Assembly (NCBI GenBank): GCA_031278635.1 | Contig: JAITKA010000130.1 | Span: 1-33,451 of the forward strand | Direction: 5' to 3' | Source of the DNA: Deltaproteobacteria bacterium | GTDB taxonomy: Bacteria > Desulfobacterota > Desulfarculia > Adiutricales > Adiutricaceae | DNA length: 33,451 bases | Shown: positions 5,447 through 8,972 of the stretch, piece by piece | Layout: each line of letters starts with the position of its first letter | Position numbering within the stretch: position 1 is the stretch's first letter | Position numbers and translations under genes: made by a program | The notes under the pieces: generated by a model | Told to the model about the DNA's origin: nothing | Seen by the model: the letters and a program-made list of their open reading frames with translations, nothing else | The model's database searches: none

Positions 5447-6598
5447 TCAGTAGGGGTTCGGCTGGGCCTTGGGGGCGGCGGACAGTTTCGAGTCCTCGAC
5501 CATGTGGTATGAGCCCACGACGTGGCACTCCTCGGTCTCGGCCTCAAGGGCCTTCAGGGCCCCGATTACCTTGGGGTCCTGGAAGTGGCCGTCCAGCTCA
5601 AGGAAAAAGAGGTACTCCCACGGGGAATCGACGTTGGGCCTGCTGTGGAGGCGGGTCAGGTTGACCCCGGCCTCGGCCAGGGGTTGGAGGCATTTGTACA
5701 GGCTGCCGGAATTGTGGGGGGCGCTGAACCATATCAGGGTCCGGTCGTTGGTGTTGGGCATGGCGTCTTCGCGGCTGAAGACCAAAAAGCAGGTTTGGTT
5801 GTGCTGGAAGTCCTGGAGGTCCCCGCTCATGACCGTAAGGTTGTAGAAGGTGGCCAGGGACGGGTGGCCGATAACGGCGCAGCTGTCGTCGGAGAGGGCC
5901 ATCGTGGCCCCGGCGGCGCTGGAGACCGTGGGCCGGAGCTCGACCCCGGGCATGTTCAGGGCCAGCCAGTTGCGGCACTGGGCCAGGGCCTGGGGGTGGG
6001 AGCTGATGACCTTGATCTTGCCGAGGTCGCCGTGGGCGCTCATCAGGGTCAGGCTGACCTTCAGGTTAAGCATGGCCTGGACCCTTAGGTCGGTTTTGGA
6101 TATAAGGTCCAGGGTCTGGCCGACTATGCCCTCGGTGGTGTTCTCGAAGGGGACCAGGGCGAACTCGGCCTCACCGGACTCGGCCACGGCGAAGACCTGG
6201 GCCAGGTCGTCGCAGGGGATGAACTGGGCCAGGCGGCCGAATTGCTGGAGGGCCGCCGCGTGGCTGAAGGTGCCGGCCGGCCCCAGGAAGGAGACCTTGG
6301 TCGGGGCCTGGGCCGCCCGGCAGGCCTTTATTATTTCCGTGAAGATGCCCATGACGGCTTCCGGGCCCAGGCCCTCCCCGGGTTCCGTGGGATTGGCGGT
6401 GATCCTGGTTATGACCTGGCGCTCGCGGGACAGATCCATGATGGGGAACGAGCTCTTCTTTTTGAGTTTGCCAAGCTCGATGGCCCTTTTGGCCCTACTT
6501 TGGATAAGATCCAATATCTTCACGTCAAGATCGTCTATCTCTTGGCGAAGAGGCCCCAAAACGGCGTCCATATCCGAACGTTTGGGAAGCTCGGTCAT
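5447..6598 (-). CDS. pheA: Bifunctional chorismate mutase / prephenate dehydratase (P-protein)
   Basis: A 383-residue enzyme making phenylpyruvate from chorismate. Residues 10-95 are an AroQ chorismate mutase with the expected catalytic set R18, R35, K44, D55, R58, E59. Residues 101-275 are the prephenate dehydratase ([29 protein letters not shown]). Residues 285-368 are an ACT domain for phenylalanine feedback. Two motifs depart from the norm: the dehydratase TRF reads TCF (269-271), and the ACT motifs GALV/ESRP read GSLY (298-301) and HSRP (318-321). The catalytic Thr is kept. A strong ribosome site (AAGGAGG) lies inside the end of aroF, and the genes overlap by ATGA, so translation is coupled. 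The unit is under the leader attenuator at 7679-7877. Confidence 0.95.
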
Positions 6599-7527
6599 CT
6601 TTGCCCTCCTTGATCGGCCAGTTTGATATCCGGGTTTTTAATCGTGCTGATCCTTCGGCCAAAGTGCGGGGCCAGCTCGGCCAGCTCGGCCATCAGCTCC
6701 CTGAAGGTTTCCGGGACGAGCGATTCCTCGCCGTCGCACAGGGCCAGTTCCGGGGCGCAGTGGACCTCGATCATGAGGCCGTCGGCCCCCACGGCCAGGG
6801 CGGCCTTGGAGAGTGGGGCCACGTAATGGGCCTTGCCGCTGGCGTGGCTGGGGTCGATGATGACCGGGAGATGGCTCCGCTCCTTGATGGCCAGCACCGA
6901 GGAGATGTCCAGGGTGTTGCGGGTGGAGGTCTCGAAGGTCCTGATGCCGCGCTCGCAGAGGATGACGCTCTCGTTGCCGCCGGCCAGGAGGTACTCGGCG
7001 GAGCAAAGGAGCTCCTCGACGGTGTTCATGAGGCCCCGCTTGAGCAGGATGGGCTTGCGGCTCTTGCTGAGGCGCTTGAGGAGCGAGAAGTTCTGGGAGT
7101 TGCGGGCCCCGACCTGGAGGATGTCGGCGTAGGCCTCGACCAGGTCCACGTCCGAGGAGTCCATGACCTCGGTGACTATGCCCAGGCCGGTCAGTTCCCT
7201 GGCCTTGGCCAGCATCTTCAGGCCCTCCTCGGCCAGGCCCTGGAAGCTGTAGGGCGAGCTCCTGGGCTTGAAGGCCCCGCCCCTGATGATGTGGGCCCCG
7301 GCCATCTTCACGTCCCAGGCCGTGCCCAGCATCTGGGGATCGGCCTCCACCGAGCAGGGGCCGGCCATGACCACGAATTCCGTGCCGCCCACGGACTGGG
7401 AGCCCACCTTGACGATGGAGTTCTCGGGGTGGGTCAGGCGGCTGGCCTGCTTGTAAGCCGGAAGCTTTTTGGCCGGCGGGGCTGGCGCCGCCGGGGCGAT
7501 TGGTTGGTTTTCCGTGTTGGTTGTCAT
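6595..7527 (-). CDS. aroF: 3-deoxy-7-phosphoheptulonate (DAHP) synthase, type I-beta
   Basis: A 310-residue enzyme joining phosphoenolpyruvate and erythrose 4-phosphate, the first step of the shikimate pathway. Motifs: AGPCS (55-59), [16 protein letters not shown] (82-97), LLKRG (162-166), [11 protein letters not shown] (189-199) and DPSHASG (225-231). The class I-beta barrel is complete. The ~70-residue ferredoxin-like regulatory domain of the Thermotoga type and any fused chorismate mutase are absent; instead there is a ~30-residue Ala/Pro-rich N-terminus. The enzyme is therefore probably not directly feedback-inhibited, so control falls to the leader attenuator and to PheA. It overlaps pheA by four bases. 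The ribosome site AGAGGAG is 10-13 bases from the ATG, slightly far. Confidence 0.94.
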
Positions 7528-7678
7528 TTTTAAGTGGCTCCTCTAAATCTGACGGTTTGAGACTTTATGTGATACAAAAGTCAAGATAATAACTATATTT
7601 TTAAACTTTAAAAGCAATAATGGTCGATAGATTTTCCGTTAATTTCCAAGGCATGTTAAACGCCCGTACCGCTTGGCC

Positions 7679-7821
7679 AAAAAAAGAGCCGCTGGCGGGT
7701 ATCGTCAGCGGCTCCAAAGTGATCTTCTCACGTCGCGGCTTAGGCGATACCCCCTGAAAAGTCTTTAAAATAAAAATAAAAAAACGCGAAGCGGGGACGG
7801 ATCGGTAGGGCGGGGCTATCG
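7679..7821 (-). promoter_or_regulatory. Phenylalanine attenuator of the aroF-pheA operon
   Basis: The minus strand holds a 9-bp terminator stem GAGCCGCTG (7714-7706) and CAGCGGCTC (7694-7686) followed by seven U (7685-7679). Its loop contains CGATACCC (7704-7697), which is perfectly complementary to GGGTATCG in the end of the leader reading frame (7752-7745). That same segment, GGGGGTATCG (7754-7745), can alternatively pair with CGATAGCCCC (7821-7812) upstream of the Phe codons, with one mismatch. So segments 1:2, 2:3 and terminator 3:4 compete, as in classical Phe and Trp attenuators. A ribosome stalled on the Phe run would cover the bases between segments 1 and 2 and favour 2:3, giving read-through into aroF. 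Confidence 0.85.
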
Positions 7822-7877
7822 GTTTGCCAGTTCGCGGAGGGGGTGGCCATGGCGGCCGTTGTGGGATCTTGTTTCAT
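7740..7877 (-). CDS. Phe/Tyr-rich leader peptide of the aroF-pheA operon
   Basis: A 45-codon frame from ATG (7877-7875) to TAA (7742-7740). Residues 30-40 read FAFFYFYFKDF: six Phe and two Tyr codons in eleven. This is the signature of a pheL-type leader peptide, here followed within ~26 bases by the attenuator terminator stem. No Shine-Dalgarno sequence precedes the ATG: the promoter -10 box ends only eight bases upstream, so the message may begin at or within a few bases of the start codon (leaderless translation). An internal ATG (codon 10) also lacks a ribosome site. The peptide is longer than the usual 15-20 residues. Confidence 0.82.
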   Translation of the reverse strand: MKQDPTTAAMATPSANWQTDSPALPIRPRFAFFYFYFKDFSGGIA

Positions 7878-7885
7878 GGGGAGAG

Positions 7886-7915
7886 ATTATACGCCCGGGG
7901 CCGGGGTTTTGTCAA
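7886..7915 (-). promoter_or_regulatory. Consensus sigma-70 promoter of the aroF-pheA operon
   Basis: The minus strand reads TTGACA (7915-7910), an 18-base spacer, then TATAAT (7891-7886). Both boxes are perfect. The start point is expected at 7880-7877, which coincides with the leader-peptide ATG. A strong constitutive promoter ahead of an attenuator is the usual arrangement. Confidence 0.9.
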
Positions 7916-7936
7916 GGGAAAAATTACGGGTCGCTA

Positions 7937-7977
7937 ACCCCATGGCCCCATCGGGCAAACCGATGGGGCCATGGGGT
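7937..7977 (-). terminator. Perfect 18-bp hairpin at the stop of the OmpA-domain gene
   Basis: Arms of 18 bases (7937-7954 and 7960-7977) pair perfectly around a 5-base loop; the first base of the arm is part of the TGA stop. A short T-run comes only about 13 bases after the stem, so it is an imperfect intrinsic terminator or an mRNA 3'-end stabiliser. It insulates the OmpA-domain gene from the aroF promoter, whose -35 box begins 22 bases beyond it. Confidence 0.6.
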
Positions 7978-8972
7978 CAGTTGCCGGTGTTCCGGGTGAT
8001 GGCGTAATCGGTGCCGGACAGGTTGACCACCTCCACGCGCCGGTTGCGGCCGTCCTCGGGATCGACGTTGGGCAGGGGCCGGGACTCGCCCAGGCCCTCG
8101 ATGGGCAGCTGGGAGGAGGCGATGCCGAAACGCTCGGTGAGGTAGCGCTGGACGGAGACGGCCCTGCGCCTCGAGAGGTCGAGGTTGTACTCGTAAGTCC
8201 CCCTGGCGTCGGTGTGGCCCTCGAGCCTGAAGCTGGAGCCGGCCAGTTCCGGGGAGGTCATGGCCCGGCCCAGGGTGTTGAGGACGTCCCTGGCCTCGGG
8301 GGTCAGCTCGTCCTTGTCGAACTCGAAGAGGACGTTCAGGGCCAGCCTCGGGCGGTCGTCGCCCTGGGGCTCGTTCAGGTACTCCTCGGGCGGGGGCGTC
8401 CCGCCCCGGGCGATGGTCAGGGCCGCCCTCTGCTCGGGGGTGTAGGCCCGGCGCCTGGGCCGGCCGCCCGGGCTCAGGGCGTCTATCATCTGGCCCATGG
8501 AGGGATCGTCCACCCCGGTCAGGTCGGTGAGCCTGCGGCGGTTCACGTACTGGAATGGGTAATTGATGAAGGTCCAGCGGGGCAGGGGAAAGTCGGAAAA
8601 GGGCGGCTCCTTGCTCTCGAAGGCCCCGCTCCCGTCGTAATCGACCACCTGGTAGTCCCAGGGGTCCTCGAGGTCGTGGTCGGCCACGTAGCAAAAGACC
8701 CGGCCGTTATGGCTGAGGCGCAGGGCCCGGCCCTCGCCGTCCCTTAGGATGAATTCCTCGCGCCTCGTCTCCTCGCCCTCGACGGTTATGTCGAAATCGA
8801 TCATCTCGTCGGAGGTGCGGAGGGCCCCGTACAGGGCCGGTTTTTCCCAGCCGTAGGGGAAATAGTCATGGTGGTTGGTCATGGCCTGGAGGTAGGCCGG
8901 GCCTTCCAAGAGTAGCCACAAAGAGCTTAAGACGGCAATCAGAGCCATTGTTATGATATATTTTTTACGCAT
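7977..8972 (-). CDS. OmpA-family peptidoglycan-binding envelope protein
   Basis: A 331-residue protein. Residues 1-23 are a basic start plus hydrophobic segment (signal peptide or anchor). Residues 40-150 are an unrecognised region rich in aromatic and acidic residues (DYFPYGWEKP, DPWDYQVVDYDG). Residues 208-325 are an OmpA C-terminal domain: VLFEFDKDELTPEA, LEGHTDARGTYEYNLDLSRRRA with the Asp and Arg that hold diaminopimelate of peptidoglycan, and GLGESRPL...NRRVEV. It probably ties an envelope structure to the cell wall. A beta-barrel is not evident, so this is a periplasmic or anchored OmpA-like protein, not a porin. The ribosome site is weak (GTGAAG). It stands alone, upstream of the aroF promoter. 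Confidence 0.85.
   Translation of the reverse strand: MRKKYIITMALIAVLSSLWLLLEGPAYLQAMTNHHDYFPYGWEKPALYGALRTSDEMIDFDITVEGEETRREEFILRDGEGRALRLSHNGRVFCYVADHDLEDPWDYQVVDYDGSGAFESKEPPFSDFPLPRWTFINYPFQYVNRRRLTDLTGVDDPSMGQMIDALSPGGRPRRRAYTPEQRAALTIARGGTPPPEEYLNEPQGDDRPRLALNVLFEFDKDELTPEARDVLNTLGRAMTSPELAGSSFRLEGHTDARGTYEYNLDLSRRRAVSVQRYLTERFGIASSQLPIEGLGESRPLPNVDPEDGRNRRVEVVNLSGTDYAITRNTGN

Follow-up and report, generated by a model that had tools for sequence, protein, structure and literature searches.

The window (the whole stretch of 33,451 nucleotides analyzed here) carries on its minus strand a leader region bounded on one side by the stop codon (7977) of an OmpA-like gene and on the other by the start (7527) of aroF. 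The product of aroF (6595-7527) is a type I beta DAHP synthase of the AroF type (NCBIfam PRK08673, 8.6e-129), and the end of the gene is overlapped by pheA (5447-6598), which encodes a chorismate mutase/prephenate dehydratase (NCBIfam PRK11898, 1.9e-65, plus a chorismate mutase domain); these are the first and second genes of the putatively regulated operon. Upstream is a sigma-70 promoter, TTGACA-18-TATAAT (7886-7915, with the -35 box at 7915-7910 and the -10 box at 7891-7886), that the initial annotation had called perfect and that does match the consensus at 12 of 12 positions; promoter-like sites number three in 5 kb vs. 0.8 expected. It precedes a frame of 45 codons, MKQDPTTAAMATPSANWQTDSPALPIRPRFAFFYFYFKDFSGGIA, with an ATG at 7877 and a TAA at 7740, that contains the residues FAFFYFYFKDF (control codons TTC GCG TTT TTT TAT TTT TAT TTT AAA GAC TTT, 7758-7790). 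Directly 5' of the leader stop is GGGTATCG (7745-7752), henceforth segment 2, the candidate 5' strand of an antiterminator. Further downstream is a terminator stem-loop, GAGCCGCTG-ACGATACCCGC-CAGCGGCTC (segments 3 and 4, 7686-7714), that ends in a U-tract (TTTTTTT, 7679-7685), and the core of segment 3 in the terminator loop, CGATACCC (7697-7704), is complementary to GGGTATCG at 8 of 8 positions. Frame, U-tailed terminator and this perfect complementarity were all found at the places and in the order before aroF-pheA originally proposed. A small hairpin, GTGA-GAAGA-TCAC (7719-7731, statistically weak), lies within the loop that pairing of segments 2 and 3 (2:3) would enclose. The leader region as a whole folds somewhat better than its shuffles (z -2.26). 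On the far side of the promoter, at 7931-7976 and right after the OmpA-like stop, there is also an inverted repeat, long and almost perfect (CCCCATGGCCCCATCG / CGATGGGGCCATGGGG), that lacks an obvious U-tract.

By its AroF relatives, the window genome belongs to a family of Deltaproteobacteria, whose isolates we take, from record names and the genus literature, to originate from termite guts. The family includes a record of Candidatus Adiutrix, a member of the Desulfarculia, Thermodesulfobacteriota, in the NCBI taxonomy. Searching 37 family genomes identified this AroF in 30, and once one locus truncated at a contig edge (L029) and one that was left out (L114) had been set aside, 28 loci with readable upstream DNA remained. 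In all 28 a frame rich in Phe and Tyr codons and then a terminator precede aroF, at a leader-to-aroF distance of several hundred bases in some genomes, and a TTGACA-type promoter lies 5' of nearly all of the relatives' leaders. A leader and terminator also precede aroF in one Desulfarculales genome (L030), and this locus together with the 28 family loci makes up the 29-locus set used below. The operon is conserved as well, with pheA adjoining aroF in 26 of the 28 family loci, the exceptions (L016 and L028) being short loci that end soon past aroF. Tyrosine is present in every one of the 29 leaders, by either codon, and some also contain Trp. The leaders prefer TTT and TAT, codons that the genes of the window avoid (TTT:TTC is 125:40 in the leaders and 40:135 in the window genes; TAT:TAC is 36:36 and 14:94, respectively). 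Given this recurrence in 28 of 28 family genomes, the covariation described next and a scan for leader plus terminator that passed 0 of 174 shuffled controls, we consider the architecture to be more than a product of chance.

Throughout the family, segment 2 occupies the last part of the leader frame, before the stop, segment 3 spans the terminator's 5' arm and its loop, and segment 4 is the 3' arm. The alignment used for covariation analysis contains 25 relatives and omits four loci whose pairing region is more diverged (L006, L017, L021, and L030), such that its figures describe the more regular members; the cells counted are sequences that share ancestry and not independent events. In this alignment 87.5% of the cells of the 2:3 helix are paired, 18 cells have two-sided changes and the covariation score is 0.343 vs. 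0.182 when shuffled, while 95.6% of the cells of the 3:4 helix are paired and two-sided changes occur at 8 of its 10 pairs. For both helices, the observed pairing, the count of two-sided cells and the covariation score were reached by 0 of 500 shuffles. Registers slid along either helix were paired in at most 55% of cells (never more than 48% for 2:3). A duplex test of 2:3 on single sequences gave p <0.05 in only 16 of the 29 loci, in part because the GC-rich terminator arm readily pairs with shuffled sequence. The pairing partners themselves differ, being GGGTATCG:CGATACCC in the genus of the window, GGTTTCGCC:GGCGAAACC in L009, GGCGTC:GACGCC in L005 and GGGTTGCC:GGTAACCC in L025. In four loci (L012, L019, L023, and L024) the RNA of segment 2 is retained in another reading frame; for instance, GGTTTCGCC is read as ..GFA followed by the stop in L009 and as ..EVSP.. 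in L012 and L019. That segment 2 is kept across different frames shows selection on the RNA and not on the end of the peptide.

Folding of the nascent RNA without the 3' terminator arm produced the 2:3 antiterminator together with the inner hairpin (-23.8 kcal/mol), and deletion of segment 2 allowed the terminator to form. The inner hairpin is found again, with altered sequence, in many relatives, although the statistics are weak (mean p 0.27, below 0.05 in 5 of 29 loci); it may serve to shorten the 2:3 loop or to pause the polymerase. The Phe, Tyr and Trp codons of the family peak 15-40 nt 5' of the base at which segment 2 begins to pair, and the core FFYFYF run of the window is about 17-32 nt 5' of that segment. 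Given the usual ribosome footprint, segment 2 is accessible during a stall in FFYFYF but hidden once the ribosome has reached the stop. As the control codons are mostly 15-40 nt before segment 2, a stalled ribosome should leave that segment free.

The locus therefore combines a series of codons for its operon's end product with an intrinsic terminator between leader and first gene and an antiterminator that is mutually exclusive with it; the sequence and its comparison with relatives show the leader, the position of its control codons, the two covarying helices and the operon, which makes the amino acid that would be sensed. We consider it very probable that the element is a ribosome-mediated transcription attenuator of aroF-pheA with a Phe/Tyr leader, as originally annotated. 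RNA polymerase would start at about 7879, and a ribosome would load immediately on the leader. Under a shortage of charged tRNA-Phe, and possibly also of charged tRNA-Tyr, translation would stall in the FFYFYF run, leaving GGGTATCG free to pair with CGATACCC before the 3' arm of the terminator exists, with the result that no terminator would form and aroF-pheA would be transcribed. When Phe is plentiful, the ribosome would reach the stop just behind segment 2 and cover that segment, segment 3 would pair with segment 4, and transcription would end in the U-tract. We infer the stalling itself, the identity of the amino acid(s) sensed and the efficiency of termination from this arrangement.

The initial annotation had gone a step further in proposing a three-way competition, in which CGATAGCCCC (7812-7821) acts as a segment 1 that pairs with segment 2. 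The pairing exists as it was described: CGATAGCCCC pairs with GGGGGTATCG with a single mismatch (9/10), at -14.4 kcal/mol with segment 2. However, CGATAGCCCC is absent from all six congeners, and when the sequence upstream of segment 2 was searched for a partner in all 29 loci, the best one did no better than in shuffles (mean p 0.40, below 0.05 in 2 of 29), so that of the three stems proposed, 2:3 and 3:4 held up and 1:2 did not. A second candidate, CGATCCGTCCCC (7804-7793), lies beside the Phe codons, pairs with segment 2 at -11.9 kcal/mol and has counterparts in three congeners (L003, L028, and L002); it would be masked by a ribosome positioned on the first of these codons. It is unlikely, in our estimation, that the element is a classical four-segment attenuator in which either of these sequences provides a working 1:2 protector/pause hairpin, and CGATAGCCCC is probably not a functional arm. 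We treated such a hairpin as a feature of the classical trp/phe subtype and not as essential to attenuators, and dropped the 1:2 pairings, both the one first proposed and its alternatives. Judged by these comparisons, a two-state design is likelier than three-way competition. One consequence of there being no supported 1:2 helix is that an untranslated leader should read through and not terminate.

Three further readings were weighed against, or alongside, the attenuator. In the gap between terminator and aroF there is a promoter-like site with a 9/12 match (TTAACA-17-GAAAAT, minus strand 7659-7631), which could supply basal expression. That this site drives aroF behind a constitutive terminator, the leader being a chance or structural frame, is very improbable, as it leaves the conserved Phe/Tyr run, the spacing of that run to segment 2 and the covarying antiterminator unexplained. 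We find it scarcely credible that the element is a T-box or a metabolite riboswitch: such elements are generally known to lie likewise between promoter and terminator of aromatic genes in other bacteria, but the covarying structure here consists of two simple helices only, and Rfam gave no match to these or other classes for the window element, either at gathering score or at E up to 10. The T-box covariance model had no match at E up to 10 in 7600-7980, nor was anything matched by Rfam at E up to 0.5 in 20 related loci. The third reading is a refinement of the attenuator and not an exclusive alternative to it, namely that it is a true dual sensor in which starvation for Phe and for Tyr (in relatives also for Trp) each relieve termination. 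The multivalent ilv leaders offer a parallel. The Tyr found in 29 of 29 leaders is no mere by-product of a preference for TTT, given its 36:36 division between TAT and TAC, and aroF supplies all three aromatic amino acids; in the classes of the phylum other than Desulfarculia, 19 of 21 leaders have Trp in the run, vs. 2 of 17 in other Desulfarculia and 12 in the 29-locus set. Conversely, Tyr may persist for the sake of U-rich RNA or for slow decoding beside Phe, and the Phe-Tyr-Phe leader aroR of Corynebacterium glutamicum is reported to respond to limitation for Phe and not for Tyr (PMC11802643). On balance we regard dual sensing, which the initial annotation had read from the Tyr codons, as quite possible, if somewhat short of probable.

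In the window genome the leader ATG is 8 nt after the -10 box, so that translation of the leader is probably leaderless, and as this leader has no Shine-Dalgarno sequence, its translation would depend on leaderless initiation. An in-frame ATG at +8 is also present in four of six congeners (L002, L004, L005, and L006). Of the other two, L028 has an ATG at the same position that opens a separate mini-frame, MDMMSQPRSWLATPMR followed by a stop, its Phe leader beginning about 60 nt downstream, and L003 has a related stretch without an ATG at +8. Two loci of another genus (L012 and L019) have an in-frame ATG 8-9 nt past the -10 box, and L030 has in-frame ATGs at +6 and +9; among the remaining members, 5' leaders mostly measure about 60-130 nt. 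A leaderless leader peptide is known from Sinorhizobium meliloti, where the trpL transcript begins directly with the ATG of its attenuator peptide (PMC7298713), although that case concerns a Trp operon in an alphaproteobacterium, and leaderlessness in the window is deduced from promoter spacing.

The mechanism is textbook. The classical case of a phenylalanine attenuator is E. coli pheL, and the likeness of pheL-pheA to the present element extends to the Phe-rich leader peptide, the choice between antiterminator and terminator and the control of the P-protein gene pheA. The window family differs in having no Rfam match (the Phe_leader model of gammaproteobacterial pheL did not match the window at E up to 10), no conserved 1:2 arm, Tyr in every leader and a DAHP synthase gene in first place. 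Phe/Tyr leaders before DAHP synthase genes are already known, too. In C. glutamicum, the aroR leader (Phe-Tyr-Phe; Neshat et al., 2014) precedes the DAHP synthase gene aroF and is associated with ribosome-mediated attenuation (PMC11802643, PMC4046766). The likeness, a mixed Phe/Tyr leader directly 5' of a DAHP synthase gene, is one of description and not of RNA homology, and the C. glutamicum system belongs to another phylum, has a shorter aromatic motif and does not have pheA named in its operon in those descriptions. The uORFC-13-1 motif, a Phe-containing uORF with a terminator 5' of aroF in Acholeplasma (PMC8632094), is similar by description in an unrelated taxon. In view of these two precedents, the original assessment of the arrangement as uncommon was too strong (PMC4046766, PMC11802643, PMC8632094).

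Elsewhere in the same genome, the operons checked for leaders were those of trpE and pheS only. The region of trpE (L139; G000:C74:4400-5600, reverse strand) has an attenuator-like leader, MPKVTNHNLNGPRIVSRGWWWPLSSAWLSGDTA followed by a stop, and a terminator, AACCACGG..TCGTGGTTTTTTTTT, and in the leader CGTGGTTGT is complementary to ACAACCACG; a mini-frame, MEPVSRERRFF and a stop, is located near the promoter, 5' of the trpE leader. No attenuator was seen by eye 5' of pheS.

Beyond the family, the leader-plus-terminator scan was passed by 16 of 18 regions 5' of aroF in other Desulfarculia. Of the two that failed, L121 is evident on visual inspection, and L130 is the region of a paralog 3' of a trpG-like gene. 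Of 40 regions from classes of the phylum other than Desulfarculia, 21 passed; two of these passes (L156 and L157) are doubtful, and two regions below threshold (L141 and L147) were positive by eye. The thresholds of the scan were set after the Desulfarculia leaders had been seen, and for most genomes it covered the best AroF match only. Pairing outside the family is between GTCTGCCC in the leader and GGGCAGAC in the terminator, with variants that include GTCCGCCC:GGGCGGAC and GTCTACCC:GGGTAGAC; the duplex test gave p <0.05 in 23 of 38, a loose result in that the downstream region was not confined to the terminator arm. Across these loci (L115-L132 and L141-L169), Phe, Tyr and Trp codons occur together in the leaders of other classes, and the leaders of other Desulfarculia have mostly Phe and Tyr; the codon mix may track the end products served by the controlled DAHP synthase. 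Three loci of other Desulfarculia (L130, L133, and L134) have a second DAHP synthase paralog 3' of a trpG-like gene and without an aromatic leader. Viral contigs yielded three distant DAHP synthases only.

The attenuator is apparently conserved across the class Desulfarculia and present in roughly half of the genomes sampled in the other classes of the phylum, a distribution that seems not to have been described. We found no detailed description of such an attenuator in the phylum; it may have been predicted earlier by Lopatovskaya et al. in 2010, reportedly a comparative study of bacterial attenuators (cited in PMC4833913). A predicted attenuator before the aromatic supraoperon of Desulfovibrio vulgaris was listed in 2005 without description (PMC1173090). 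Taking these observations together, we tentatively suggest an old and widespread DAHP synthase attenuator in Thermodesulfobacteriota that reads Phe and Tyr, and outside Desulfarculia also Trp, with a mix that shifts by lineage, without a 1:2 arm in Ca. Adiutricaceae and leaderless in one genus, although we think this picture as a whole rather more likely to be revised than to stand.

These findings place leader-peptide control of the first aromatic step in Thermodesulfobacteriota. The regulatory logic has held its position while the pairing changed, with GTCTGCCC:GGGCAGAC predominating among the phylum members seen and GGTTTCGCC:GGCGAAACC or GGGTATCG:CGATACCC in the family, and the spread of Phe/Tyr/Trp mixes offers natural variants with which the specificity of leaders for several amino acids becomes testable.
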